From positions 60,348,025 to 60,412,024 of the forward strand of contig CP136068.1 of assembly GCA_032622095.1 (NCBI GenBank): a stretch of 64,000 bases of DNA, given 5' to 3'. The stretch is from Siphonodentalium dalli. Lineage: Eukaryota; Mollusca; Scaphopoda; Gadilida; Siphonodentaliidae. The notes under the pieces are model-generated. The model had not been told where the DNA came from. It ran no database searches and saw nothing but the letters and a program-made list of their open reading frames with translations. A program made the translations under genes and the position numbers. This document shows positions 1 through 64,000 of this stretch, in pieces (the first letter of the stretch is position 1; every line of letters begins with the position of its first letter).

Positions 1-82
1 CCGAAATTTCTCTGAATGTTCGCTATTCCGAAGGTTCACCAATCCGAAGGTTCGTTATTCCGAAGGTTCTGTGTTCCAAAGA
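1..82. repeat. 16-bp minisatellite (TTCGYTATTCCGAAGG-like)
   Basis: Four adjacent 16-base units lie at 19-34, 35-50, 51-66 and 67-82, built on TTCGTTATTCCGAAGG. The last is degenerate (TTCTGTGTTCCAAAGA), and 1-18 looks like a further decayed unit. A lone related piece (TTCATTATCACGAAGA) sits near 130-145. The array may continue to the left of the window. Confidence 0.75.
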
Positions 83-690
83 TTTTTTTTATTTTAAGGT
101 TAATTCTATATTCTAAAGTAACGAGAGGGTTCATTATCACGAAGATTCTTTTTATGAAGGAAATAACGTAAAACATTAAATGTGATTTTGTTTTGTTTTC
201 GAGGGTTTTCTTGAGTTTAATGTCATTACGTATGACCTTATTTCTCATTACATATTCACGCCAAGGAGCCCACACAATTGCTATGTTACGATGCGATTTA
301 ATGTGATTATGTGTGACCTAATATCTCAATAATCTGAGGCAAGAGTACGCCTGCTAAAGGCGAATTATAACAGTTGGGGGTATAACGCTCAATAAATACT
401 GGAGGCTATAACAAACTGCGCAGTAGAATATCGCTGAATGGACGAGTATGAGATGAGCCTAAATGCAATTGTGACTTTGTTTAAAGGCCCACTTAATTTT
501 CGAGTCATTAATTTTTTATAGTATATACGGTTTTAATAACAATTTATGCCATAAAATTTGAATAAACTACTATAATTCATCACCATTTGAAAGGCAGAAT
601 ACTTCTATCTCCTAGTTTGAAACACCTTCAAAATACCGCGTCGTATATCTAGCAATAAGCAACCAACATGTCCTCCTCGGCTTTCCATAG
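83..690. other. Non-coding stretch with an imperfect 32-bp duplication
   Basis: I find no credible gene. The only structure is an imperfect direct repeat. The block starting TTTAATGTCATTACGTATGA at 216-247 recurs at 297-328 with about five mismatches, 81 bases apart. The open frame on the minus strand over 36-275 covers the minisatellite and has no coding character. Confidence 0.6.
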
Positions 691-1202
691 ATTTCAACGT
701 AATTTGATACTTATGGGTATTTGTGTCCGGGAAGTGTTTTGAACGGGTCAAATCGTGACCCCGACCTGACCTTGACCTTTAAAACTGTCAATGCAAGGTC
801 AATTTGGGTAAAACGGACAAATTTCGGCGAAATTTTATACCTAGGGATACTTTGGTCCGAGGAGAGTTTTGAACGGGTCAAATCGTGACCTCGGCCTGAC
901 CTTGACCTTCAATATGGCCAATCAAAGGTCAACTCGGATAAAACGGATAGATTTCGACGAAATTTGATACCTATGGGTACTTTTGTCGGGGGGGGGGGTG
1001 TTTTGGACGGGTCAAATCATGACTCTGACCTTACCTTGACCTTCAAAATTGTTAATTAAAGTTCAAGTTGGGAAAAACGGACGGATTTCGACGAAATATG
1101 ATACCTATGGGTAGTTTTCTACGGGTGGGGGTGTTTTGGACTGGACAAATCATGACCCTGACCTGACCTTGACTTTCGAAATAGTCAATTGAAGGTCAAA
1201 TC
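691..1202. repeat. Four diverged tandem copies of a ~130-bp repeat with TGACCT half-sites
   Basis: Copies start at 691, 821, 951 and 1085 with the shared opening ATTTCGACGAAATTTGATAC; spacings are 130, 130 and 134 bases, and the last copy is cut short near 1202. Each holds GGGTCAAATC followed by a TGACC-rich block (for example CCTGACCTTGACCTT). Copy 3 is lengthened by an 11-G run at 988-998. TGACCT is the complement of the nuclear-receptor half-site AGGTCA; whether that matters is unknown. Divergence between copies is far greater than in the large array, so this is an old repeat. Confidence 0.85.
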
Positions 1203-1454
1203 GCACCTTTCACCGGAAAGCAGATGGGAAACAGCCCGGGTGAAGTCGGGCCTATCAGCTTGTGTAATAAAGAAGACAGTTTGATGAAAGTAATGTATGC
1301 CACGAGAAACGGGAAAACTTGAAATATGGAAGTACGCAAATTTCCCGCATAAAATTTGAAAGCTAGTTTATAGAATAATTGTATTATTATTTATATTTAT
1401 GGCTAATAATACGATCTTGGTGGCGTTACCATTTCTGACTATGGTTTTCTTGTG
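1203..1454. other. Upstream region of the 103-codon gene
   Basis: No gene is seen. A small hairpin (GCCCG at 1234-1238 pairing with CGGGC at 1247-1251) is present. The DNA becomes AT-rich toward the TATA box at 1455. Confidence 0.5.
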
Positions 1455-1461
1455 TATATAT
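1455..1461 (+). promoter_or_regulatory. Putative TATA box of the 103-codon gene
   Basis: TATATAT lies about 30 bases upstream of an initiator-like TTCATAAC (1483-1490) and 68 bases before the ATG at 1523. This spacing suits a polymerase II core promoter with a 5' leader of roughly 35-40 bases. The assignment rests on spacing and motif only. Confidence 0.4.
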
Positions 1462-1522
1462 GGCGTTGTATCACGATAGGGGTTCATAACAAATCGCAAT
1501 ATTCACATACATCACACAAACA

Positions 1523-1834
1523 ATGACAAGTCTTCGTAAACGTGAAATCGAGCGCCTTTTGTCGAAAGCAAAAGATGCAACGGACAGACTCATGCAGGGT
1601 GGTTATCCAGCGGCGTTCGTATGTCTCACAAAGGACACAACCCATACTGCCGTGAACATGACTGCATCCCCGGAATCGGAGGCAGCTAACTTCACCGTTG
1701 CGATATCGGAATGTGAATCACAATTGGAAAGATTAACAACGGACGACCACGAGGAACCTCACAGAGAAACGCCACAGAGACGAATTCCCAGACAAAGGAA
1801 ACCGCGCGTAGTTTTCACGCCAAGTAACCAATGA
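1523..1834 (+). CDS. Unrecognised 103-residue protein, compact intronless gene
   Basis: I do not recognise the family. The ATG has A at -3 (acaATG), a favourable eukaryotic context, and is the first ATG after the predicted start site. Residues 1-25 form a charged, possibly helical segment (SLRKREIERLLSKAKDATDR). The middle, about 26-75, is mixed and rich in Thr, Ala and Glu. The tail, about 76-103, is strongly basic (RRIPRQRKPRVVF) and could bind nucleic acid or act as a nuclear localisation signal. There is no signal peptide or membrane segment. A TATA box at 1455 and poly(A) signals at 1912-1921 bracket the frame closely, giving a complete small transcription unit. It may be a mobile-element accessory gene, a lineage-specific gene or a chance open frame; homology was not tested. 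Confidence 0.45.
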   Translation: MTSLRKREIERLLSKAKDATDRLMQGGYPAAFVCLTKDTTHTAVNMTASPESEAANFTVAISECESQLERLTTDDHEEPHRETPQRRIPRQRKPRVVFTPSNQ

Positions 1835-1911
1835 CTTTCAAGTGTAATAATGTAAATCAAAGTTCTGATTATTCTGTTAAAGTTTCTGATATAGCTCTAT
1901 TTCGTCATTTT

Positions 1912-1921
1912 AATAAATAAA
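1912..1921 (+). terminator. Overlapping AATAAA poly(A) signals
   Basis: Two overlapping AATAAA hexamers (1912-1917 and 1916-1921) lie about 80 bases after the stop codon at 1834, followed by T-rich DNA. This is the expected layout for 3'-end processing of the 103-codon gene. Confidence 0.45.
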
Positions 1922-2490
1922 ATTATATATTCATTTGCAAAAACGTTTGTCTTGTCCTTTTTATATACGACATTATAACACAAAATAGCCATGTGCAATT
2001 TGTTGGTTTATGAGACATGTTGATTGTCATGCGCAATTTCCACTCTGCGCATGTGTTGGTTTATGAGGCATGCGCGTGTGTGGATATCCGCAGCCTCAAT
2101 ATAACTGTCAGCGCCTGCGGGTTTGTCAATACAGGGATCACGTTACCGCAGAGCCACACAATGCTCATTTGTCGGCTTAACTACGGCAAACCCGCCGTGC
2201 GCCTTTGTGTTAATCCCGCCAAATTACATACCTCCAAAATGCGTTGAATAGCACAACATGTCAATTTCTAGAAAGTAGGCAGAGATCATTTACTAATGAT
2301 AAAAATTTATCCCAAAATGACTACCGAAAATCGGACAGTTGATAGCAGTTATATCCATTTCGTTTTCTACGAATTGGAATATTTGGAGCAAAAATTGCGA
2401 ACGTTTAACATGTAGGCTGAGTCAGTTGATATTTTGTCACCTGATCAGATCAAACGAATCTCTATTGTGTTGTTGGATATCGAGAGTCAA
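1922..2490. other. Non-coding stretch with a 19-bp direct repeat
   Basis: A motif of the form TGTTGGTTTATGAGRCATG occurs at 2001-2019 and 2053-2071, 52 bases apart, and a related ATGYGCAATTT occurs before each. The 76-codon open frame at 2017-2247 runs through these repeats and has no features of a protein I know, so I do not call it. Nothing else is recognisable up to the end of the decayed gene at 2491. Confidence 0.5.
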
Positions 2491-2946
2491 TTAAACATTG
2501 GCATCTGAATCACAATGACCAGCACACACACATAGTGCAGTACACGGTAGGTTAGCTTTAACACACTTGCACAAGTTTTTGCACGCTTTCTTGCAACCGC
2601 AGTGAATTAACTCCTGACAAACGTTGCTGGCATAAGGAAGTTGTGACCACTTTGGTGCGAATCCATCTGGAAGAATATTCCAGCCCCAATCGGATGGGCA
2701 GGGCAACTTCTGTGCAGCGACGAATGACTGTCCCCAGATGAAACCTGCTTGATATGCAACTCGATTGACGTGTTCCCTGAGAGCGCCAAGTGTCGGTGGA
2801 ATGGTCTCTATGGTTCTAGTACCTTTGGCGAATAACAATCTCCTAGCCTCATTCACAGTCATTGTTCCAGAAGTCTTGGAGTACATAAGAACGACGAACC
2901 GCTGTATAATATCCAATGAACCCTCGTCAACACTTGAGTCAAGCAT
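2491..2946 (-). pseudogene. C-terminal segment with a ten-cysteine cluster
   Basis: A 151-codon frame in the same phase as the preceding segment. It contains SLDIIQRFVVLMYSKTS, VNEARRLLF, TIETIPPTLGALREHVNRVA, YQAGFIWGQ and a Trp/Pro-rich stretch. It ends in ten cysteines within about 36 residues, spaced CxC, CxxxC, CxC, CTALCxCxxxC. The cluster recalls CXC or pre-SET type zinc clusters, so zinc binding is a reasonable inference. The natural stop is TAA at 2491-2493, so the C-terminus appears complete. Confidence 0.7.
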
Positions 2947-2964
2947 AACAAGGCGTCCGTGAGT

Positions 2965-3890
2965 TCAGGATACGATTCCCATGCAGACATGCCACGCTGT
3001 TTTCTTACCTCTCCCGGCAAAATCGGATGTAGTGTCTGACCCAGTTAATGCATGGAAAGCCGGTAACATCTTTGATTTATCGGGACCAATCGAAGCAGCT
3101 ATTTCATAGGTTGGTATCAAACGATAGTTTTTTTTTACCCCGAAGGCAATCCACAATTCTTCAATTTCAAATTGACAAACATTAGCTACGGCAAGAACTA
3201 CAACGTCGGTATCGACAGTTCGGGTTAAAACTTTGGTGTCTCCGTTGCTAACTGAATGTGATACATGAAGAATAACCCGCGTATCTGCCTCTTCGTGATT
3301 GCACGATACCATTCCGTCAATCGGTGCGTCTCCACCATTAATACACAACACATGGTTCTCTTCCGTCACGAATAGTTGCTTCTGGGAAACATCGAGTTCG
3401 ACTAATTTATTGGACAGAAATGAAAACAATTCAGACTTATTCTCCGAATTACGGAGGTACGATGACCAGTTGCGTAGTATCTGAGTTTTTTCCAGCACAC
3501 GTCTTCTGATCCCTTCACCTCGCTGTTCTCTGATTCCAGATTTCAAATTTTTTGGTAAGTATCTATCCCATACAACGTCAACTCGTTTCGCGTTTTCTAG
3601 CTGTGACGTCACATATGGCACAAACGAGTTATCTGCATAATCACCAAATGTTGCTGAAGATGCTGGTTGGACCATGTTGACAATCACCGATCCATCAAGT
3701 ACAATCGCCGTCACATCTGGTGGGTGTTCAGATGCTTTGCTTGGCGCGGTCTGTTCCAAACAGCTTAGAAGATCAGACTTCGTCCCAGTTCGCAGCTTGC
3801 CATTAGCAGAAAGTGCTGGAGGGTTCGCTTGATTTTCGTGGGAAAAGAATTGTTCCAGGTCACCATCTCTCACTTGACACCCTATTTTTT
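2965..3890 (-). pseudogene. HEEADTR / TGSDTTS segment of the decayed family copy
   Basis: Longest intact part, about 302 codons from the internal ATG at 3873; the family-like reading starts before it, after the A6 run. Landmarks in order: RDGDLEQFFSHENQ, GKLRTGTKSDLL, VTAIVLDGSVIVNM, RVDVVWDRYLPKNLKSG, REQRGEGIRRRV, CNHEEADTRVILH (about residue 190), RTVDTDVVVLAVA (about 218), ELWIAFGVKKNYR and HALTGSDTTSDFAGRGKKTAW (about 272-292). The Asp/Glu-rich motifs resemble a metal-binding nuclease-like core, but this is inference; I know of no assay for the family. The frame ends at a TGA at 2965-2967. The adjacent frame from 2981 reads WESYPELTDALL, the expected continuation. Confidence 0.75.
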
Positions 3891-4535
3891 CCGCGAAAAC
3901 AACAGACAGTCGTTTTTCAAAGAGTAATTTTTATTTTGGAGTTTTTATTTTCTTTTAGATTGAGTACCGAAGAGAGACAGGGACAACTTTGTAATTGTAT
4001 CAGAATGTGGGTCATTTGAGTCTGGTTTGAGCAATCTCTGTTCAACGAACTCGGCGTATTTTTCAGCTGCTTTCTGCCTTGCAGATGTTATTGAAACAAT
4101 CACATCGGTTGACATACAGTCCATAGTATCGAGTCGAATAAGGTCAGGACTTGTCTCAAGAAAAGGGTTGCCAACTTATTCCAACACAGAAACAAGCGAA
4201 GACACATCATTAAGAAAATATGCATGCTTCTTTGGTGACCATTCATGATGATTAGATGCTAATACGTCTGTGTGGTTAGAGTATTCGAACTCATTAATAA
4301 TTCTCAGGTCCTGACAAAAGCCACTAGAATATTATGATCTAGTGAGAAAAACCAGGGCATTATTTTGTCCAGGCAATCCAAATAAAGAGGGAAATCTCCA
4401 ACCCTGAGTGATCGCACGAAAACATTGAGAAGAATTTCTAGTTCGGCCACTGTGTACCAATACATGAACTGCGGATAGTTTTTAACACACCCTTCGCACC
4501 ACTTCCCAAATGACAGTTTTGAAGTACACTCGTTT
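3891..4535 (-). pseudogene. Frame-shifted middle of the decayed family copy, with deletion and two stops
   Basis: No long open frame exists here, but the translation is readable in pieces. 4535-4328 gives KWCEGCVKNYPQF, LLNVFVRSLRVGDFPLYLD and MPWFFSLDHN. The phase then changes and RIINEFEYSN follows directly. By my memory of the family, several dozen residues normally sit between these blocks (including a QAHEQNN-type motif), so an internal deletion is inferred near 4320-4331. The reading continues through HHEWSPKKHAYFLND, a TAA at 4176-4178, GNPFLETSPDLIRLDT, a TAA at 3945-3947 in a Lys-rich linker, and SLKNDCLLFSR, up to the A6 frameshift at 3885-3890. Confidence 0.65.
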
Positions 4536-5559
4536 GTTGATCATTGATAAAATCAGTGTATGTCCTATCTAAGAGAACAGGAAGGGCTGCCACAGTTACT
4601 TGATGAGCATAACGAGATTGCTTGAGTTTATGTCCGGACAATATTGAATCACATTTGCCTGATGTAGTTATACCCGCACGAACAAACATATCTGACCAAC
4701 CACTGTTAGCCAGCCACTGTCCCAATACTGACAAAAACGCCATCTCGATATGCGTGCCACCCATCATGATGACGCACGTATTCTCACCATAACGTTCGGG
4801 AAATGTCCATTGGATGCGCTTTGCTAGACTAAATAAAGGTTGATCCATAGCTAAAACAGGAATCTGTCCTGCGTTGGGAAATTCAACAGCATCTTGCACA
4901 ATTCGCATTGAGTGCATAATCATCGCTGCCGAATTTGCATTCTCTGTGAATAGAGGCAGAAGTCCAATTATTGCTTGTGGCATCACACGTTCCTGTTTAT
5001 TTGAGTAGAATGCTGACCAATTAAGGTGCGAGTCCACTTTCTCCACTTCATTTGATTTCCCATGAGATACTACATCCACCAGCTTGGACAACCACTCGTC
5101 TTCGTCAGCTGTGGCAAGCTGGAATTTCTGTCCATCTGGACGAACAGCACCTTCAACAGGCGGTACCAAAACATCAGAATTGCTCAAAGAAACAGGTTTG
5201 ACCATGGTATAACTGTGCGGGGTGTTGCCAGTGAATGAACTCCCTGATGAGTCGTAGTTATGCCTTGCCCTCTGTGATCCTGTATTTTCTGTAGAAACAT
5301 GATTCGTTAGTGATACGGCGGTACCGTGGAATGAATCCTTAGCCGTAGTCGATGAAGGATTATGATCTATGTTGTCCACGGCGGCAGTTGTGAACACACC
5401 AGTTTTCATATCAGGTGGACAAACCAAACCCTCTTGTGCAAACTGGGCGCACACAGTATTAGCAAGGCAGTTTGAGATACTCATCACGCGTTTGTATGAT
5501 ACAGAAAGTCCAAGACTATGAAGTTTGTCGACAATTTTTTTTCTTTCTGGTTGCCTCAT
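4438..5559 (-). pseudogene. Central segment of the decayed family copy (IDHNPSS, GGTHIEM)
   Basis: A 373-codon frame in the same phase as the upstream segment, separated from it by a single stop. Landmarks are SLGLSVSYKRVM near the start, AVDNIDHNPSSTTAKDSFHG around residue 60, LLPLFTENANSAAM around 200, PVLAMDQPLFSLAKRIQW around 235, MMGGTHIEMAFLSVLGQWL around 270, and RYAHQVTVAALPVLL around 320. The last roughly 35 residues of the open frame are out of phase. From about 4535 the family-like reading shifts to another frame with KWCEGCVKNYPQFMYWY. Residues 80-160 are Ser/Thr-rich and low in conservation signals. Confidence 0.7.
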
Positions 5560-5562
5560 GAA

Positions 5563-5898
5563 TCACCACGCCGAGATAAATTGCCAGGGGGGGGGGGTTT
5601 CCCGTTTTGTATCATAACGAGTATGTTCATTTGGTTTGCGTGACGTTCGTTTATCCTTGACCACATTATACCCTATGAGTTGTGATATGCTATGCCCTGG
5701 TACAGAATAATCTGGACTGTCCTCTTTAATATCTTTAGACACACATTTTGGTCCATACAGTATAAGCCTGACAAGGGTACTGAGCATGTTCGGTACAGAC
5801 TTTTGCTGCCACTCCGCGTTAAGATGTCCATGAAATTCCTCCCCGTGTTCTTGGGTGCTAAATATTTCATCACGAACCATTCTGGCTACTTTCTCCAA
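5563..5898 (-). pseudogene. N-terminal segment of the decayed family copy
   Basis: About 111 codons. The first ATG is at 5880 (MVRDEIF); the codons before it follow a stop, so the true N-terminus is missing or lies in another frame. Recognisable family-like stretches are the SVPNMLSTLVRLILYGP block and SISQLIGYNVVKDKR. After the C11 tract the frame reads into WQFISAW and a TGA at 5560-5562. The adjacent frame instead reads LAIYLGVVIHEATRKK, which fits the family better, and the original frame resumes after the A8 run. Confidence 0.65.
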
Positions 5899-6618
5899 TC
5901 AGGAAGGCATCAGAATCAAACACGATTATTTCTTATATACTGTGTTATAGGTACGTACGCATAACTTTTACCTATGGTAACAGCATCAATTATCGTTTGT
6001 GATGTATTGGACACGAGAGAAGCTAAAATAAAACAAAAACAAAAAAACCTCAGAATACGTTTTAGCTTATTGTATAAATGGCGTTATTTTTAACTTCCGG
6101 TTGCCATTCATGGGTTATCTGACATTTTTGTGGATAAGTTGTATTCCATACAGATCATATGCATATAATGGTTGTCTTTTGAGAGTAACAGCAAGCTTAT
6201 TGCGACAACACACTAGCTAGAGCTCATTTCATGTCACCAATAATGTACAGGACGTTTTAACACTGTCTCTTTGGTACCTTTGTTTAACCTAATTCTATAA
6301 ATTACTCGCATACCAGAAAAGACTTTATATGGTAGGCTAAAGATTTACGCCAATAAACAATGCAAAAAAAGACCATAATTATATATTATTTACCCATATT
6401 TTTTTCAATTTAATTCAAAAATAGTAAAAAACAAAACAAAAATTTGAATTTTGGCGGCCATTTTGGGCAGCCATCTTGGATTATTAAAAAAAATAATTAG
6501 ATTCAGAAGAAAGTATATTATGTTCACAATGTTCCCACAATTTTCCACCTGTATTCCGATATAAATATAGGTTATTTCTGAGAGTTAAGGCGACTACCAT
6601 GAAAAACTGTTACTTTAG
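5899..6618. other. Gene-free AT-rich stretch with paired GCCATYTTGG motifs
   Basis: No gene is seen. It has A-rich runs (6020-6050, 6425-6445). A motif GCCATTTTGG at 6457-6466 is repeated as GCCATCTTGG at 6470-6479. The shared core resembles a YY1-type site, but the pair may equally be part of a dispersed repeat. Confidence 0.5.
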
Positions 6619-6652
6619 AAGGTCAAGGTCAAATAAAAGGTCAAGGAGGTCA
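6619..6652 (+). repeat. Cluster of four AGGTCA half-sites
   Basis: AGGTCA occurs at 6620-6625, 6626-6631, 6638-6643 and 6647-6652, the first two with no spacer. It is the complement of the TGACCT motif of the 691-1202 repeat. It could be a nuclear-receptor type element or a remnant of a dispersed repeat. Confidence 0.55.
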
Positions 6653-7005
6653 TTAAAAGTTGGAACCCGCTAACTGGGTAATGTACACCACATACAGACA
6701 AAACCCTGAAAGTTTCATGCTTCTATCACAAAGTGAACGATTGGTGCAGCTAGGCCCTCCACTAAATATCGCTACCTGGAAGTCTCCGGTCCCATAACGT
6801 AATCGCGGATAAAATTTCGTAACCGCATCTCAACTGATTGCCATCTTCGTCTACCCCATTGACCTCATTCTGGACACCTCGACCTATGACATCTGGGCTA
6901 CGGAATCTGACGATGTTTGCCGAATGCATCTTAAGGGTGTGTTTCAGTTAGTCCCGTCGCTGGCTCAGTCCACTCCGCTTACTACTCCGTAACGTTACGC
7001 TCCCG
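6653..7005. other. Unique DNA abutting the satellite array
   Basis: No gene is seen. The base composition is visibly richer in G+C than the DNA to its left. A perfect 12-bp palindrome, CGTAACGTTACG, lies at 6988-6999, six bases before the array begins. I find none of this stretch inside the array. Confidence 0.55.
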
Positions 7006-7011
7006 ACTATA

Positions 7012-7463
7012 GGTTACAATACACCAAATACAAATTAGTAGAGTGATTTCCCCTGGGACCCCCCAAGCTAGGATCAGCATAAAAAAAATTCTGGCAGCTG
7101 AATGGTCAATGATACATGGATGAAAAGTGCACGAAAAAATGCACAGATGTGTTTCCCGTCGAGAAACATCAAATATAACCACATGGTAAATGGTTATGGC
7201 TGTGCAAGTGGCGAATAATTTATGGGAGGTGTTTGTGTTTTTTTCGATGTCATTTTTTTCACAATTTTAAGGGTAGTGTGACGTTTGTCAAGCTCCAGTG
7301 TGATCTACCATGTTAACAAGTACTTTTTTGCACATTTCTGTGTGTCTAAAAGGACGTTCTTTAATTTCAAATACTCGTGCAGGGTCAAAGCTTTGCAACG
7401 AATATAGGCCAGCGGGATTTGTTAACACTGAGGCCTATGTAAATCATTTGGTGTATTGTAACC
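7012..7463. mobile_element. MITE-like cassette, first copy at the array edge
   Basis: Begins GGTTACAATACACCAAAT (7012-7029) and ends with its exact reverse complement (7446-7463), giving 18-bp perfect terminal inverted repeats. TATA flanks it on both sides (7008-7011, 7464-7467). It is 452 bases here because of a C6 run; the usual copy is 451. It has no coding capacity. There are 32 copies in the window, each ending five bases before a monomer start: 14 up to 24783, then before 28746, 30078, 31410, 35374, 36706, 40669, 42001, 45087, 47296, 50382, 51714, 53046, 54378, 56587, 57919, 59251, 62337 and 63669. Features fit a non-autonomous DNA transposon. The superfamily cannot be fixed because the palindromic target hides the exact duplication length (0 to 4 bases). 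Confidence 0.75.
7127..7197. other. Three consecutive hairpins inside the cassette
   Basis: First: GTGCA 7127-7131 with TGCAC 7140-7144. Second: GATGTGTTTC 7146-7155 with GAAACATC 7163-7170, with a small bulge. Third: ATAACCA 7175-7181 with TGGTTAT 7191-7197. They follow one another within 71 bases and recur in the other cassette copies. This could be structural DNA of a MITE or a folded RNA; no function is shown. Confidence 0.5.
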
Positions 7464-7784
7464 TATAGTGAAAAATGGTCGTTTTTCAGATTTCTGCTCT
7501 GAAACAAGTCCCGTGCTTATTATGCCCATGAAACAAATTGGAGACATAAAGCACGCGATACGACAGCTTATTTGGCGCCGGAGCCGTCCAATAAAATTAC
7601 AAATTAACCCCTCTGATGCTATTTCTGCTTCTCGTTGTAGAACCGAAAATTACCATTTTCGACATATTTTTGGGCCCAATGGTGTCCCTTTAATGAATGT
7701 GAGACCATATTTGTTGGCGTCCGACATCCTAGATGAACGACAAGGCAGATTTGTCGGGTTTGGGCACGACATGAGAGTAAAGCG

Positions 7785-7792
7785 TGACGTCA
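7785..7792. promoter_or_regulatory. CRE palindrome TGACGTCA in each monomer
   Basis: A perfect TGACGTCA, the consensus for CREB/ATF-type factors, repeated once per monomer. A related TGACGTGG lies at 8272-8279, just before the TATA box. Function is not shown by sequence alone. Confidence 0.35.
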
Positions 7793-8009
7793 GATGGACC
7801 ATACCCTAAAATGTGATGCAAAATCGGACCCGATTCGGGTCAAACTAAGTTGAATTGCCCCTGTTAGATGACAGGTTGACAAAAAAGCCTACCATGGAAG
7901 TTTGCAGAAATGGTTCGACTATCCAACGCGCACAAATTTCGGCCAATAAATATATTCTTGTGACGGGACAATTTTGATTTTCTGTCGATATTTTTCGAAA
8001 ATTGTGTAG

Positions 8010-8055
8010 GTGCGCCCAATGTGAAACCTAAGTGCGCCCAATTCGCCTAGCGAAT
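8010..8055. repeat. Doubled 11-mer and adjoining hairpin
   Basis: GTGCGCCCAAT occurs at 8010-8020 and 8032-8042 with an 11-base spacer that itself starts GTG, a period of 22 bases or about two helical turns. A perfect six-base hairpin with a CTA loop (8041-8055) overlaps the second copy's end. The layout resembles a paired protein-binding site and is present in every monomer. Confidence 0.55.
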
Positions 8056-8253
8056 CGTATGGCATATTTTCTGGAAGTGGCATCTACAAGCTATCAGATC
8101 GACAACCTGTATGTACATCGTCATTGTTTACTTTGCCAATATTCAGCTAAAATGAAAAAAAATTGACATTCAAGTCAAAGTAATTTGTTTGCAAATTCAG
8201 CTATGGGTGGTGACAGAAAAGGGTTAATAAAGTAAGAACACAGACATATTTCG

Positions 8254-8270
8254 AATAAAATTTATTTATT
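8254..8270. terminator. Opposed poly(A) signals in each monomer
   Basis: AATAAA on the plus strand (8254-8259) is followed directly by TTTATT at 8261-8266 and 8265-8270, which is AATAAA on the minus strand. If transcribed from either side, the monomer could end transcripts here, 11 bases before the TATA box. Confidence 0.35.
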
Positions 8271-8271
8271 T

Positions 8272-8288
8272 TGACGTGGGTATATAAA
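8272..8288 (+). promoter_or_regulatory. Putative core promoter repeated in each monomer
   Basis: TGACGTGG (8272-8279) directly precedes TATATAAA (8281-8288). Initiation 25-32 bases downstream would fall in CATTTGGGCGACTTTC, about 30-40 bases before the cassette insertion point. In long monomers the transcript would run into the cassette; in short ones, straight into the next body. Confidence 0.35.
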
Positions 8289-11200
8289 TGGACGCAATAT
8301 AACATCATTTGGGCGACTTTCTTTACCTTCCAGTGATCACTATAGGTTACAATACACCAAATACAAATTAGTAGAGTGATTTCCCCTGGGACCCCCAAGC
8401 TAGGATCAGCATAAAAAAAATTCTGGCAGCTGAATGGTCAATGATACATGGATGAAAAGTGCACGAAAAAATGCACAGATGTGTTTCCCGTCGAGAAACA
8501 TCAAATATAACCACATGGTAAATGGTTATGGCTGTGCAAGTGGCGAATAATTTATGGGAGGTGTTTGTGTTTTTTTCGATGTCATTTTTTTCACAATTTT
8601 AAGGGTAGTGTGACGTTTGTCAAGCTCCAGTGTGATCTACCATGTTAACAAGTACTTTTTTGCACATTTCTGTGTGTCTAAAAGGACGTTCTTTAATTTC
8701 AAATACTCGTGCAGGGTCAAAGCTTTGCAACGAATATAGGCCAGCGGGATTTGTTAACACTGAGGCCTATGTAAATCATTTGGTGTATTGTAACCTATAG
8801 TGAAAAATGGTCGTTTTTCAGATTTCTGCTCTGAAACAAGTCCCGTGCTTATTATGCCCATGAAACAAATTGGAGACATAAAGCACGCGATACGACAGCT
8901 TATTTGGCGCCGGAGCCGTCCAATAAAATTACAAATTAACCCCTCTGATGCTATTTCTGCTTCTCGTTGTAGAACCGAAAATTACCATTTTCGACATATT
9001 TTTGGGCCCAATGGTGTCCCTTTAATGAATGTGAGACCATATTTGTTGGCGTCCGACATCCTAGATGAACGACAAGGCAGATTTGTCGGGTTTGGGCACG
9101 ACATGAGAGTAAAGCGTGACGTCAGATGGACCATACCCTAAAATGTGATGCAAAATCGGACCCGATTCGGGTCAAACTAAGTTGAATTGCCCCTGTTAGA
9201 TGACAGGTTGACAAAAAAGCCTACCATGGAAGTTTGCAGAAATGGTTCGACTATCCAACGCGCACAAATTTCGGCCAATAAATATATTCTTGTGACGGGA
9301 CAATTTTGATTTTCTGTCGATATTTTTCGAAAATTGTGTAGGTGCGCCCAATGTGAAACCTAAGTGCGCCCAATTCGCCTAGCGAATCGTATGGCATATT
9401 TTCTGGAAGTGGCATCTACAAGCTATCAGATCGACAACCTGTATGTACATCGTCATTGTTTACTTTGCCAATATTCAGCTAAAATGAAAAAAAATTGACA
9501 TTCAAGTCAAAGTAATTTGTTTGCAAATTCAGCTATGGGTGGTGACAGAAAAGGGTTAATAAAGTAAGAACACAGACATATTTCGAATAAAATTTATTTA
9601 TTTTGACGTGGGTATATAAATGGACGCAATATAACATCATTTGGGCGACTTTCTTTACCTTCCAGTGATCACTATAGGTTACAATACACCAAATACAAAT
9701 TAGTAGAGTGATTTCCCCTGGGACCCCAAGCTTGGATCAGCATAAAAAAAATTCTGGCAGCTGAATGGTCAATGATACATGGATGAAAAGTGCACGAAAA
9801 AATGCACAGATGTGTTTCCCGTCGAGAAACATCAAATATAACCACATGGTAAATGGTTATGGCTGTGCAAGTGGCGAATAATTTATGGGAGGTGTTTGTG
9901 TTTTTTTCGATGTCATTTTTTTCACAATTTTAAGGGTAGTGTGACGTTTGTCAAGCTCCAGTGTGATCTACCATGTTAACAAGTACTTTTTTGCACATTT
10001 CTGTGTGTCTAAAAGGACGTTCTTTAATTTCAAATACTCGTGCAGGGTCAAAGCTTTGCAACGAATATAGGCCAGCGGGATTTGTTAACACTGAGGCCTA
10101 TGTAAATCATTTGGTGTATTGTAACCTATAGTGAAAAATGGTCGTTTTTCAGATTTCTGCTCTGAAACAAGTCCCGTGCTTATTATGCCCATGAAACAAA
10201 TTGGAGACATAAAGCACGCGATACGACAGCTTATTTGGCGCCGGAGCCGTCCAATAAAATTACAAATTAACCCCTCTGATGCTATTTCTGCTTCTCGTTG
10301 TAGAACCGAAAATTACCATTTTCGACATATTTTTGGGCCCAATGGTGTCCCTTTAATGAATGTGAGACCATATTTGTTGGCGTCCGACATCCTAGATGAA
10401 CGACAAGGCAGATTTGTCGGGTTTGGGCACGACATGAGAGTAAAGCGTGACGTCAGATGGACCATACCCTAAAATGTGATGCAAAATCGGACCCGATTCG
10501 GGTCAAACTAAGTTGAATTGCCCCTGTTAGATGACAGGTTGACAAAAAAGCCTACCATGGAAGTTTGCAGAAATGGTTCGACTATCCAACGCGCACAAAT
10601 TTCGGCCAATAAATATATTCTTGTGACGGGACAATTTTGATTTTCTGTCGATATTTTTCGAAAATTGTGTAGGTGCGCCCAATGTGAAACCTAAGTGCGC
10701 CCAATTCGCCTAGCGAATCGTATGGCATATTTTCTGGAAGTGGCATCTACAAGCTATCAGATCGACAACCTGTATGTACATCGTCATTGTTTACTTTGCC
10801 AATATTCAGCTAAAATGAAAAAAAATTGACATTCAAGTCAAAGTAATTTGTTTGCAAATTCAGCTATGGGTGGTGACAGAAAAGGGTTAATAAAGTAAGA
10901 ACACAGACATATTTCGAATAAAATTTATTTATTTTGACGTGGGTATATAAATGGACGCAATATAACATCATTTGGGCGACTTTCTTTACCTTCCAGTGAT
11001 CACTATAGGTTACAATACACCAAATACAAATTAGTAGAGTGATTTCCCCTGGGACCCCCAAGCTAGGATCAGCATAAAAAAAATTCTGGCAGATGAATGG
11101 TCAATGATACATGGATGAAAAGTGCACGAAAAAATGCACAGATGTGTTTCCCGTCGAGAAACATCAAATATAACCACATGGTAAATGGTTATGGCTGTGC

Positions 11201-14200
11201 AAGTGGCGAATAATTTATGGGAGGTGTTTGTGTTTTTTTCGATGTCATTTTTTTCACAATTTTAAGGGTAGTGTGACGTTTGTCAAGCTCCAGTGTGATC
11301 TACCATGTTAACAAGTACTTTTTTGCACATTTCTGTGTGTCTAAAAGGACGTTCTTTAATTTCAAATACTCGTGCAGGGTCAAAGCTTTGCAACGAATAT
11401 AGGCCAGCGGGATTTGTTAACACTGAGGCCTATGTAAATCATTTGGTGTATTGTAACCTATAGTGAAAAATGGTCGTTTTTCAGATTTCTGCTCTGAAAC
11501 AAGTCCCGTGCTTATTATGCCCATGAAACAAATTGGAGACATAAAGCACGCGATACGACAGCTTATTTGGCGCCGGAGCCGTCCAATAAAATTACAAATT
11601 AACCCCTCTGATGCTATTTCTGCTTCTCGTTGTAGAACCGAAAATTACCATTTTCGACATATTTTTGGGCCCAATGGTGTCCCTTTAATGAATGTGAGAC
11701 CATATTTGTTGGCGTCCGACATCCTAGATGAACGACAAGGCAGATTTGTCGGGTTTGGGCACGACATGAGAGTAAAGCGTGACGTCAGATGGACCATACC
11801 CTAAAATGTGATGCAAAATCGGACCCGATTCGGGTCAAACTAAGTTGAATTGCCCCTGTTAGATGACAGGTTGACAAAAAAGCCTACCATGGAAGTTTGC
11901 AGAAATGGTTCGACTATCCAACGCGCACAAATTTCGGCCAATAAATATATTCTTGTGACGGGACAATTTTGATTTTCTGTCGATATTTTTCGAAAATTGT
12001 GTAGGTGCGCCCAATGTGAAACCTAAGTGCGCCCAATTCGCCTAGCGAATCGTATGGCATATTTTCTGGAAGTGGCATCTACAAGCTATCAGATCGACAA
12101 CCTGTATGTACATCGTCATTGTTTACTTTGCCAATATTCAGCTAAAATGAAAAAAAATTGACATTCAAGTCAAAGTAATTTGTTTGCAAATTCAGCTATG
12201 GGTGGTGACAGAAAAGGGTTAATAAAGTAAGAACACAGACATATTTCGAATAAAATTTATTTATTTTGACGTGGGTATATAAATGGACGCAATATAACAT
12301 CATTTGGGCGACTTTCTTTACCTTCCAGTGATCACTATAGGTTACAATACACCAAATACAAATTAGTAGAGTGATTTCCCCTGGGACCCCCAAGCTAGGA
12401 TCAGCATAAAAAAAATTCTGGCAGCTGAATGGTCAATGATACATGGATGAAAAGTGCACGAAAAAATGCACAGATGTGTTTCCCGTCGAGAAACATCAAA
12501 TATAACCACATGGTAAATGGTTATGGCTGTGCAAGTGGCGAATAATTTATGGGAGGTGTTTGTGTTTTTTTCGATGTCATTTTTTTCACAATTTTAAGGG
12601 TAGTGTGACGTTTGTCAAGCTCCAGTGTGATCTACCATGTTAACAAGTACTTTTTTGCACATTTCTGTGTGTCTAAAAGGACGTTCTTTAATTTCAAATA
12701 CTCGTGCAGGGTCAAAGCTTTGCAACGAATATAGGCCAGCGGGATTTGTTAACACTGAGGCCTATGTAAATCATTTGGTGTATTGTAACCTATAGTGAAA
12801 AATGGTCGTTTTTCAGATTTCTGCTCTGAAACAAGTCCCGTGCTTATTATGCCCATGAAACAAATTAGAGACATAAAGCACGCGATACGACAGCTTATTT
12901 GGCGCCGGAGCCGTCCAATAAAATTACAAATTAACCCCTCTGATGCTATTTCTGCTTCTCGTTGTAGAACCGAAAATTACCATTTTCGACATATTTTTGG
13001 GCCCAATGGTGTCCCTTTAATGAATGTGAGACCATATTTGTTGGCGTCCGACATCCTAGATGAACGACAAGGCAGATTTGTCGGGTTTGGGCACGACATG
13101 AGAGTAAAGCGTGACGTCAGATGGACCATACCCTAAAATGTGATGCAAAATCGGACCCGATTCGGGTCAAACTAAGTTGAATTGCCCCTGTTAGATGACA
13201 GGTTGACAAAAAAGCCTACCATGGAAGTTTGCAGAAATGGTTCGACTATCCAACGCGCACAAATTTCGGCCAATAAATATATTCTTGTGACGGGACAATT
13301 TTGATTTTCTGTCGATATTTTTCGAAAATTGTGTAGGTGCGCCCAATGTGAAACCTAAGTGCGCCCAATTCGCCTAGCGAATCGTATGGCATATTTTCTG
13401 GAAGTGGCATCTACAAGCTATCAGATCGACAACCTGTATGTACATCGTCATTGTTTACTTTGCCAATATTCAGCTAAAATGAAAAAAAATTGACATTCAA
13501 GTCAAAGTAATTTGTTTGCAAATTCAGCTATGGGTGGTGACAGAAAAGGGTTAATAAAGTAAGAACACAGACATATTTCGAATAAAATTTATTTATTTTG
13601 ACGTGGGTATATAAATGGACGCAATATAACATCATTTGGGCGACTTTCTTTACCTTCCAGTGATCACTATAGGTTACAATACACCAAATACAAATTAGTA
13701 GAGTGATTTCCCCTGGGACCCCCAAGCTAGGATCAGCATAAAAAAAATTCTGGCAGATGAATGGTCAATGATACATGGATGAAAAGTGCACGAAAAAATG
13801 CACAGATGTGTTTCCCGTCGAGAAACATCAAATATAACCACATGGTAAATGGTTATGGCTGTGCAAGTGGCGAATAATTTATGGGAGGTGTTTGTGTTTT
13901 TTTCGATGTCATTTTTTTCACAATTTTAAGGGTAGTGTGACGTTTGTCAAGCTCCAGTGTGATCTACCATGTTAACAAGTACTTTTTTGCACATTTCTGT
14001 GTGTCTAAAAGGACGTTCTTTAATTTCAAATACTCGTGCAGGGTCAAAGCTTTGCAACGAATATAGGCCAGCGGGATTTGTTAACACTGAGGCCTATGTA
14101 AATCATTTGGTGTATTGTAACCTATAGTGAAAAATGGTCGTTTTTCAGATTTCTGCTCTGAAACAAGTCCCGTGCTTATTATGCCCATGAAACAAATTGG

Positions 14201-24782: not shown

Positions 24783-27413
24783 GTGAAAAATGGTCGTTTT
24801 TCAGATTTCTGCTCTGAAACAAGTCCCGTGCTTATTATGCCCATGAAACAAATTGGAGACATAAAGCACGCGATACGACAGCTTATTTGGCGCCGGAGCC
24901 GTCCAATAAAATTACAAATTAACCCCTCTGATGCTATTTCTGCTTCTCGTTGTAGAACCGAAAATTACCATTTTCGACATATTTTTGGGCCCAATGGTGT
25001 CCCTTTAATGAATGTGAGACCATATTTGTTGGCGTCCGACATCCTAGATGAACGACAAGGCAGATTTGTCGGGTTTGGGCACGACATGAGAGTAAAGCGT
25101 GACGTCAGATGGACCATACCCTAAAATGTGATGCAAAATCGGACCCGATTCGGGTCAAACTAAGTTGAATTGCCCCTGTTAGATGACAGGTTGACAAAAA
25201 AGCCTACCATGGAAGTTTGCAGAAATGGTTCGACTATCCAACGCGCACAAATTTCGGCCAATAAATATATTCTTGTGACGGGACAATTTTGATTTTCTGT
25301 CGATATTTTTCGAAAATTGTGTAGGTGCGCCCAATGTGAAACCTAAGTGCGCCCAATTCGCCTAGCGAATCGTATGGCATATTTTCTGGAAGTGGCATCT
25401 ACAAGCTATCAGATCGACAACCTGTATGTACATCGTCATTGTTTACTTTGCCAATATTCAGCTAAAATGAAAAAAAATTGACATTCAAGTCAAAGTAATT
25501 TGTTTGCAAATTCAGCTATGGGTGGTGACAGAAAAGGGTTAATAAAGTAAGAACACAGACATATTTCGAATAAAATTTATTTATTTTGACGTGGGTATAT
25601 AAATGGACGCAATATAACATCATTTGGGCGACTTTCTTTACCTTCCAGTGATCACTATAGTGAAAAATGGTCGTTTTTCAGATTTCTGCTCTGAAACAAG
25701 TCCCGTGCTTATTATGCCCATGAAACAAATTGGAGACATAAAGCACGCGATACGACAGCTTATTTGGCGCCGGAGCCGTCCAATAAAATTACAAATTAAC
25801 CCCTCTGATGCTATTTCTGCTTCTCGTTGTAGAACCGAAAATTACCATTTTCGACATATTTTTGGGCCCAATGGTGTCCCTTTAATGAATGTGAGACCAT
25901 ATTTGTTGGCGTCCGACATCCTAGATGAACGACAAGGCAGATTTGTCGGATTTGGGCACGACATGAGAGTAAAGCGTGACGTCAGATGGACCATACCCTA
26001 AAATGTGATGCAAAATCGGACCCGATTCGGGTCAAACTAAGTTGAATTGCCCCTGTTAGATGACAGGTTGACAAAAAAGCCTACCATGGAAGTTTGCAGA
26101 AATGGTTCGACTATCCAACGCGCACAAATTTCGGCCAATAAATATATTCTTGTGACGGGACAATTTTGATTTTCTGTCGATATTTTTCGAAAATTGTGTA
26201 GGTGCGCCCAATGTGAAACCTAAGTGCGCCCAATTCGCCTAGCGAATCGTATGGCATATTTTCTGGAAGTGGCATCTACAAGCTATCAGATCGACAACCT
26301 GTATGTACATCATCATTGTTTACTTTGCCAATATTCAGCTAAAATGAAAAAAAATTGACATTCAAGTCAAAGTAATTTGTTTGCAAATTCAGCTATGGGT
26401 GGTGACAGAAAAGGGTTAATAAAGTAAGAACACAGACATATTTCGAATAAAATTTATTTATTTTGACGTGGGTATATAAATGGACGCAATATAACATCAT
26501 TTGGGCGACTTTCTTTACCTTCCAGTGATCACTATAGTGAAAAATGGTCGTTTTTCAGATTTCTGCTCTGAAACAAGTCCCGTGCTTATTATGCCCATGA
26601 AACAAATTGGAGACATAAAGCACGCGATACGACAGCTTATTTGGCGCCGGAGCCGTCCAATAAAATTACAAATTAACCCCTCTGATGCTATTTCTGCTTC
26701 TCGTTGTAGAACCGAAAATTACCATTTTCGACATATTTTTGGGCCCAATGGTGTCCCTTTAATGAATGTGAGACCATATTTGTTGGCGTCCGACATCCTA
26801 GATGAACGACAAGGCAGATTTGTCGGGTTTGGGCACGACATGAGAGTAAAGCGTGACGTCAGATGGACCATACCCTAAAATGTGATGCAAAATCGGACCC
26901 GATTCGGGTCAAACTAAGTTGAATTGCCCCTGTTAGATGACAGGTTGACAAAAAAGCCTACCATGGAAGTTTGCAGAAATGGTTCGACTATCCAACGCGC
27001 ACAAATTTCGGCCAATAAATATATTCTTGTGACGGGACAATTTTGATTTTCTGTCGATATTTTTCGAAAATTGTGTAGGTGCGCCCAATGTGAAACCTAA
27101 GTGCGCCCAATTCGCCTAGCGAATCGTATGGCATATTTTCTGGAAGTGGCATCTACAAGCTATCAGATCGACAACCTGTATGTACATCGTCATTGTTTAC
27201 TTTGCCAATATTCAGCTAAAATGAAAAAAAATTGACATTCAAGTCAAAGTAATTTGTTTGCAAATTCAGCTATGGGTGGTGACAGAAAAGGGTTAATAAA
27301 GTAAGAACACAGACATATTTCGAATAAAATTTATTTATTTTGACGTGGGTATATAAATGGACGCAATATAACATCATTTGGGCGACTTTCTTTACCTTCC
27401 AGTGATCACTATA
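24783..27413 (+). repeat. Run of three short monomers
   Basis: First loss of the cassette in the array. The empty sites CACTATAGTG are at 25653-25662, 26530-26539 and 27407-27416. The middle monomer carries two marker changes, A at 25950 (GGG to GGA) and A at 26312 (CGT to CAT). Confidence 0.95.
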
Positions 27414-61004: not shown

Positions 61005-63668
61005 GTGAAAAATGGTCGTTTTTCAGATTTCTGCTCTGAAACAAGTCCCGTGCTTATTATGCCCATGAAACAAATTGGAGACATAAAGCACGCGATACGA
61101 CAGCTTATTTGGCGCCGGAGCCGTCCAATAAAATTACAAATTAACCCCTCTGATGCTATTTCTGCTTCTCGTTGTAGAACCGAAAATTACCATTTTCGAC
61201 ATATTTTTGGGCCCAATGGTGTCCCTTTAATGAATGTGAGACCATATTTGTTGGCGTCCGACATCCTAGATGAACGACAAGGCAGATTTGTCGGGTTTGG
61301 GCACGACATGAGAGTAAAGCGTGACGTCAGATGGACCATACCCTAAAATGTGATGCAAAATCGGACCCGATTCGGGTCAAACTAAGTTGAATTGCCCCTG
61401 TTAGATGACAGGTTGACAAAAAAGCCTACCATGGAAGTTTGCAGAAATGGTTCGACTATCCAACGCGCACAAATTTCGGCCAATAAATATATTCTTGTGA
61501 CGGGACAATTTTGATTTTCTGTCGATATTTTTCGAAAATTGTGTAGGTGCGCCCAATGTGAAACCTAAGTGCGCCCAATTCGCCTAGCGAATCGTATGGC
61601 ATATTTTCTGGAAGTGGCATCTACAAGCTATCAGATCGACAACCTGTATGTACATCGTCATTGTTTACTTTGCCAATATTCAGCTAAAATGAAAAAAAAT
61701 TGACATTCAAGTCAAAGTAATTTGTTTGCAAATTCAGCTATGGGTGGTGACAGAAAAGGGTTAATAAAGTAAGAACACAGACATATTTCGAATAAAATTT
61801 ATTTATTTTGACGTGGGTATATAAATGGACGCAATATAACATCATTTGGGCGACTTTCTTTACCTTCCAGTGATCACTATAGGTTACAATACACCAAATA
61901 CAAATTAGTAGAGTGATTTCCCCTGGGACCCCCAAGCTAGGATCAGCATAAAAAAAATTCTGGCAGCTGAATGGTCAATGATACATGGATGAAAAGTGCA
62001 CGAAAAAATGCACAGATGTGTTTCCCGTCGAGAAACATCAAATATAACCACATGGTAAATGGTTATGGCTGTGCAAGTGGCGAATAATTTATGGGAGGTG
62101 TTTGTGTTTTTTTCGATGTCATTTTTTTCACAATTTTAAGGGTAGTGTGACGTTTGTCAAGCTCCAGTGTGATCTACCATGTTAACAAGTACTTTTTTGC
62201 ACATTTCTGTGTGTCTAAAAGGACGTTCTTTAATTTCAAATACTCGTGCAGGGTCAAAGCTTTGCAACGAATATAGGCCAGCGGGATTTGTTAACACTGA
62301 GGCCTATGTAAATCATTTGGTGTATTGTAACCTATAGTGAAAAATGGACGTTTTTCAGATTTCTGCTCTGAAACAAGTCCCGTGCTTATTATGCCCATGA
62401 AACAAATTGGAGACATAAAGCACGCGATACGACAGCTTATTTGGCGCCGGAGCCGTCCAATAAAATTACAAATTAACCCCTCTGATGCTATTTCTGCTTC
62501 TCGTTGTAGAACCGAAAATTACCATTTTCGACATATTTTTGGGCCCAATGGTGTCCCTTTAATGAATGTGAGACCATATTTGTTGGCGTCCGACATCCTA
62601 GATGAACGACAAGGCAGATTTGTCGGGTTTGGGCACGACATGAGAGTAAAGCGTGACGTCAGATGGACCATACCCTAAAATGTGATGCAAAATCGGACCC
62701 GATTCGGGTCAAACTAAGTTGAATTGCCCCTGTTAGATGACAGGTTGACAAAAAAGCCTACCATGGAAGTTTGCAGAAATGGTTCGACTATCCAACGCGC
62801 ACAAATTTCGGCCAATAAATATATTCTTGTGACGGGACAATTTTGATTTTCTGTCGATATTTTTCGAAAATTGTGTAGGTGCGCCCAATGTGAAACCTAA
62901 GTGCGCCCAATTCGCCTAGCGAATCGTATGGCATATTTTCTGGAAGTGGCATCTACAAGCTATCAGATCGACAACCTGTATGTACATCGTCATTGTTTAC
63001 TTTGCCAATATTCAGCTAAAATGAAAAAAAATTGACATTCAAGTCAAAGTAATTTGTTTGCAAATTCAGCTATGGGTGGTGACAGAAAAGGGTTAATAAA
63101 GTAAGAACACAGACATATTTCGAATAAAATTTATTTATTTTGACGTGGGTATATAAATGGACGCAATGTAACATCATTTGGGCGACTTTCTTTACCTTCC
63201 AGTGATCACTATAGGTTACAATACACCAAATACAAATTAGTAGAGTGATTTCCCCTGGGACCCCCAAGCTAGGATCAGCATAACAAAAATTCTGGCAGCT
63301 GAATGGTCAATGATACATGGATGAAAAGTGCACGAAAAAATGCACAGATGTGTTTCCCGTCGAGAAACATCAAATATAACCACATGGTAAATGGTTATGG
63401 CTGTGCAAGTGGCGAATAATTTATGGGAGGTGTTTGTGTTTTTTTCGATGTCATTTTTTTCACAATTTTAAGGGTAGTGTGACGTTTGTCAAGCTCCAGT
63501 GTGATCTACCATGTTAACAAGTACTTTTTTGCACATTTCTGTGTGTCTAAAAGGACGTTCTTTAATTTCAAATACTCGTGCAGGGTCAAAGCTTTGCAAC
63601 GAATATAGGCCAGCGGGATTTGTTAACACTGAGGCCTATGTAAATCATTTGGTGTATTGTAACCTATA
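61005..63668 (+). repeat. Run of two long monomers with extra private changes
   Basis: Without the offset-405 C marker. The second monomer has T to A at 62348, A to G at 63168 and A to C at 63284, more private changes than a typical copy. Confidence 0.95.
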
Positions 63669-64000
63669 GTGAAAAATGGTCGTTTTTCAGATTTCTGCTC
63701 TGAAACAAGTCCCGTGCTTATTATGCCCATGAAACAAATTGGAGACATAAAGCACGCGATACGACAGCTTATTTGGCGCCGGAGCCGTCCAATAAAATTA
63801 CAAATTAACCCCTCTGATGCTATTTCTGCTTCTCGTTGTAGAACCGAAAATTACCATTTTCGACATATTTTTGGGCCCAATGGTGTCCCTTTAATGAATG
63901 TGAGACCATATTTGTTGGCGTCCGACATCCTAGATGAACGACAAGGCAGATTTGTCGGGTTTTGGGCACGACATGAGAGTAAAGCGTGACGTCAGATGGA
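63669..64000 (+). repeat. Partial monomer at the window edge
   Basis: First 332 bases of a body. It contains one extra T (run at 63960-63963), which breaks the open frame that is intact in the other copies. Confidence 0.95.

Follow-up and report, generated by a model that had tools for sequence, protein, structure and literature searches.

The two kinds of units in the satellite array

The locus raises the question of whether a segment that is present in some units of a satellite array and precisely absent from others is a transposon, and how it became multiplied with the array. In the window, by which we mean the whole 64,000-nucleotide stretch of Siphonodentalium dalli DNA that was analysed, a tandem array on the plus strand begins at about position 7006 and continues up to 64000, where the window end cuts it. 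It consists of 1332-bp units, which contain the segment (hereafter the cassette), and 877-bp core units without it, such as that at 25656..26532 (plus strand); the exceptions are one unit of 1331 bp, one of 878 bp and the last unit, which is cut. The cassette occupies 32 of the 49 junction sites in the array, and the other 17 are empty. We observed that the units are ~99.9% alike, with 26 of 48 complete cores free of any change and 26 of 32 cassettes identical to one another. These core counts omit the last core (63665-64000), which is cut by the window end and has one extra T. The order of occupied and empty sites showed mild clustering (17 runs over 49 sites, P 0.037). However, this was gone when the first 13 sites were omitted (36 sites, P 0.31), and the clustering therefore carries no weight.

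We rejected coding in the core, as a 127-aa open frame, obtained when the core is read as circular, was reached by 46 of 500 random sequences. Pfam gave no match for the open frame of the satellite core, and Rfam gave none in 1-12000, the region holding core copies. Within the core, at 9605-9623 and the equivalent place of each copy, GACGTGGGTATATAAATGG looks promoter-like by eye.

The cassette and its inverted ends

The cassette (8345..8795, plus strand) is 451 bp long and shows no coding signal. An end search placed its left inverted end, GGTTACAATACACCAAAT, at 8345..8362 on the plus strand and its right inverted end, the exact complement, at 8778..8795 on the minus strand. Over the whole window, GGTTACAATACACCAAAT was matched 32 times on the plus strand and 32 times on the minus strand, always in pairs, and beyond these 32 pairs no match with up to three mismatches was found in the window (0.17 expected from shuffles). 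An earlier sequence-only reading of this DNA had described a 451-bp insert with perfect 18-bp inverted repeats. Both descriptions hold: 30 of 32 cassettes are 451 bp long, one is 452 bp and one 450 bp, and the perfect 18-bp inverted ends are present in all 32. With separated arms, 18 bp is also the longest perfect inverted repeat in one 1332-bp unit, whereas 100 random units with matched dinucleotide composition averaged 10 and did not exceed 12. This control was used in place of an earlier one, with 300 base shuffles, in which self-palindromes were counted and the maximum, 20, was greater than the length of the ends alone (18 bp).

At 76 aa, the longest open frame of the cassette falls short of the mean under the random model (82.8), and no direct repeat of 12 bp or longer was found in the cassette. 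Taken with its flanks, the cassette forms a much stronger fold than shuffled sequences do (z -4.41), a property that goes with the inverted ends. A special interior fold was rejected, because the interior alone gave a z of -1.18 and 14 of 100 shuffles were equally good. Six distinct variants, carried by 6 of the 32 cassettes, all fall inside a 45-bp stretch near the left end (8386-8430 and the equivalent place in other cassettes) that contains C and A runs. The after-the-fact chance of such clustering is ~4.5e-5 if the variants are independent, and the stretch may be prone to mutation or difficult to sequence.

Junctions and empty sites

Sliding of the junctions located a copy of CTATAG on each side of the cassette, at 8340..8345 on the left (TATA at 8341-8344) and at 8795..8800 on the right (TATA at 8796-8799). 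The insert boundary slides over seven positions, each of which restores the same empty site, and the direct repeat is thus 6 bp long; the target duplication of up to 4 bp that had been suggested was too short. Similarly, the TATA previously noted on both sides is indeed found within both CTATAG copies, but it is not uniquely supported because of this sliding. Since CTATAG is palindromic, four symmetric readings fit equally well, namely a 6-bp duplication (CTATAG) around a 449-bp element GTTAC...GTAAC, a 4-bp duplication (TATA) around a 451-bp element GGTTAC...GTAACC, a 2-bp duplication (AT) around a 453-bp element, and no duplication with a 455-bp element TAGG...CCTA.

All 17 empty sites read CACTATAGTG, are identical over 26 bp and carry no footprint. 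The first lies at 25653..25662, at the centre of the palindrome TCACTATAGTGA, which is 12 bp long and not 10 bp as formerly given. An alternative reading of such a palindrome is that two element tips have been fused there. The intact empty site of the sequence-only reading is uniform throughout the window but could result from a deletion. The cassette flanks read GTGATCACTATA and TATAGTGAAAAA in 31 of 32 cases, in keeping with the form CACTATA-GG...CC-TATAGTG assigned earlier to the long copies, except that the first cassette (7012) has the left flank CTCCCGACTATA. With the flanks counted, the inverted repeat extends to 26 bp, and to 24 bp at this first copy. As CTATAG is palindromic and lies inside the extended inverted repeat, it provides no independent proof of a target duplication.

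One insertion or many

A mid-cassette probe showed the same orientation for all 32 cassettes, although the site is palindromic. Repeated insertions at a palindromic site should go both ways, and the single orientation thus argues for one insertion followed by amplification, as had been proposed when the cassette was said to have been amplified with its satellite host. We further compared core variants by the site to the right of the core. Variant 410C occurs in three occupied and three empty units, and variant 295A in one occupied and eight empty units. The association of 295A with an empty right-hand site (8/9, Fisher P 0.0005) is strong, implying that exchange between occupied and empty units is real but limited. 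By the right-hand site, pi was 0.00148 for 17 empty cores and 0.00084 for 31 occupied cores; by the left-hand site, it was 0.00107 for empty and 0.00116 for occupied cores. With pi higher in empty cores on the former classification and alike on the latter, neither order is clearly favoured. The simplest reading is one event, then amplification with some exchange.

The left edge of the array

At the left edge (6960..7011, plus strand), unrelated DNA is followed by ACTATA and then by the first cassette end. Comparison of 1-7007 with the core and cassette revealed no similarity beyond short matches (best E 0.15), and the first cassette is preceded by CTCCCGACTATA where the other 31 have GTGATCACTATA. 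The array therefore starts at the cassette tip, between ACTATA and GG, with ACTATA kept, a boundary that is absent from the earlier account. As a simple ratio, the chance that a random edge lies no more than 7 bp from that tip is ~0.5% for a 1332-bp unit. The edge constitutes a second left flank with TATA, at which one end only is visible, and TATA is not rare left of the array (40 occurrences in 1-7011). The sequence-only reading had called for cassette copies flanked by other DNA, and the left edge is half of such an independent flank. It also fits recombination through the cassette, or a palindrome breakpoint. According to the abstract of PMC5139131, one of the satellites examined has its edges within a palindrome in four mollusc species; the paper also concludes that satellite edges do not necessarily feature palindromes.

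These observations suggest that cassette ends may have served to seed or anchor the array. We tentatively put forward, as one possibility among others, that the satellite was born or moved through transposon ends and that cassette tips border the entire array (at least ~57 kb), which would then be a composite transposon or a recombination product of two same-direction cassettes. If this is true, it is the ends of an element that delimit a satellite array. A 12-bp palindrome, CGTAACGTTACG, is also found at 6988-6999, ending 12 bp before the first cassette. It contains GTAAC and GTTAC like the cassette tips, a likeness that is probably due to chance.

Comparison with transposon superfamilies

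Transposons of the piggyBac and Kolobok superfamilies duplicate TTAA, those of PIF/Harbinger a 3-bp TAA or TTA, and those of Tc1/mariner TA at symmetric ends. The cassette follows none of these rules, because its junction bases, CTATAG, exclude TTAA and TAA/TTA duplications altogether, and a TA duplication if the ends are symmetric. The 3-bp readings are all asymmetric and none is TAA or TTA, the sole symmetric 2-bp reading is AT, and a TA duplication needs one end that is 2 bp longer. Mosquito genomes harbour MITEs with TAYA or TTAA targets. The cassette would share a fixed, AT-rich 4-bp target with these on its TATA reading, one of the four symmetric readings (6, 4, 2 or 0 bp). Our literature searches found no paper on MITEs with TATA or TAYA targets and no single paper giving the duplications of several superfamilies. 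A sequence-string match in the literature led to a Staphylococcus paper and was taken as chance.

A proposed MITE-like element and alternative explanations

Taken together, we propose that the cassette is probably a non-autonomous, MITE-like DNA transposon, which we assign to no superfamily, that was inserted once and co-amplified with the satellite. It has the perfect or near-perfect terminal inverted repeats of MITEs (18 bp, perfect in 32/32), and it is short and without transposase coding (450-452 bp, the 76-aa open frame not being above random). The transposon reading that had been offered from the sequence alone gains from the perfect ends, the precise presence or absence and the amplification, but its duplication length is left at 6, 4, 2 or 0 bp, and the empty site may have arisen by deletion. 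A target preference is also needed to place an insertion precisely at the middle of a 12-bp palindrome, as 1-7011 contains only two perfect palindromes of that length, and the window contains only one unrelated flank, the left edge, and no dispersed copy with both flanks. Mechanistically, an element with GG(T)TAC... inverted ends would have entered a palindromic CTATAG/TATA target by cut and paste, with a duplication of at most 6 bp. Unequal exchange or rolling-circle amplification would then have multiplied this one insertion together with the 877-bp unit, and the two kinds of units would have become mixed as occupied and empty ones exchanged sequence. Joining of the array to the chromosome through the cassette, by recombination with a cassette copy already there, would have set the left edge at a cassette tip; alternatively, two copies in the same direction on either side of the first core may have recombined, or the whole block may have transposed.

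The main rival is a longer-ended, CACTA-like transposon, CACTATAGGTTAC...GTAACCTATAGTG, with CACTATAGG as its true end, in which case the short units would be internal deletions that ran from one CTATAG repeat to the other, were favoured by pairing of the 25-26-bp ends into a hairpin and left two tips fused. Such an element would explain the palindrome without coincidence through the 26-bp inverted repeat that runs into the flanks, and it agrees with the 6-bp direct repeat bordering the deleted part and with the strong fold of the cassette plus flanks (z -4.41) relative to the interior alone (z -1.18). CACTA (En/Spm) elements have CACTA termini with a 2-4-bp duplication outside them. The extended cassette termini would likewise read CACTA...TAGTG, but they do so only with the flanks counted, and the left-edge copy, GACTATAGG, reads GACTA, with G in place of the terminal C. 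Moreover, the bases outside CAC...GTG show no duplication of 2, 3, 4 or 5 bp (AT/AA, GAT/AAA, TGAT/AAAA and GTGAT/AAAAA), although amplification could have hidden one. On balance, we regard a CACTA-like origin as rather unlikely.

Of the two remaining explanations, one involves no transposon at all; part of the satellite, prone to form hairpins through its inverted repeat, would be lost or gained by replication slippage between the CTATAG repeats, and the left edge would be a palindrome breakpoint. The cassette was indeed found only in this array, in a comparison over the window (up to three mismatches) and exact-match scans of the viral and prokaryotic collections, although absence from these is uninformative, and the abstract of PMC5139131 puts the edges of one mollusc satellite within a palindrome. 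However, an element accounts better for the perfect ends in 32/32 cassettes and for an edge placed exactly at a tip, which makes slippage improbable. Repeated precise excision, as in piggyBac, from an originally all-occupied array could likewise have produced the short units, in agreement with the lack of a footprint at 17/17 empty sites and with the two core variants common to occupied and empty units. Nevertheless, a single event with exchange suffices for these features, pi does not clearly favour one order over the other by either the right-hand (0.00148 vs 0.00084, empty vs occupied) or the left-hand site (0.00107 vs 0.00116), and no further end copy, with up to three mismatches, marks an autonomous partner in the window. 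We therefore consider excision highly improbable.

Relation to known satellite-transposon links

Mobile elements that have inserted into satellite arrays, and satellites that arose from MITEs, are described in PMC12628747, PMC5139131 and PMC9659126, bivalve cases included, indicating that an association of this kind is already known. MITEs that lie within satellite DNA or have given rise to it include those of Messor ants and Xstir and miDNA4 of Xenopus. As described there, these share with the cassette a short, gene-less structure with inverted ends that is tied to a tandem array. In Xstir and miDNA4, however, the MITE contains or is the source of the tandem repeat, whereas here the MITE-like piece lies inside the satellite unit, is precisely present or absent and marks the visible array edge. 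The Pearl, CvA and DTC84 elements of bivalves, as presented in PMC5139131 and PMC9659126, similarly link satellite-like repeats with non-autonomous mobile elements. They carry short internal tandem arrays, unlike the cassette, which has perfect inverted ends and no direct repeat of at least 12 bp. The exact edge and the clean presence or absence make the cassette array a good example of this known kind, in which the order of insertion, seeding, amplification and loss could be read directly from the other array edge and the empty alleles.

Searches for other copies and the region upstream of the array

An exact-match scan of the viral collection with the end sequence gave one match, in L001 (12,251 bases). 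We rejected it as a cassette carrier and ascribe the match to chance, since it has one exact end and no second, and the 1401 bases around the match contain no cassette. Neither the cassette end plus TATA nor a 23-base piece of the core had an exact match in the viral or prokaryotic collection, which says little about a eukaryotic element.

Upstream of the array, four open frames of 111-374 aa on the minus strand (2491-5898) resemble fragments of a single disrupted gene or mobile element. Pfam gave no match for any of the four. For one of them, three PDB sequences matched at E 0.41-0.64 only, which has no significance, and a search for viral relatives gave none. We rejected these frames as an autonomous partner of the cassette because no cassette end lies nearby. 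Further upstream, at 689-1199, a 130-bp repeat in which GACCTTGACCTT is abundant is present in about four copies, with 79% matches.
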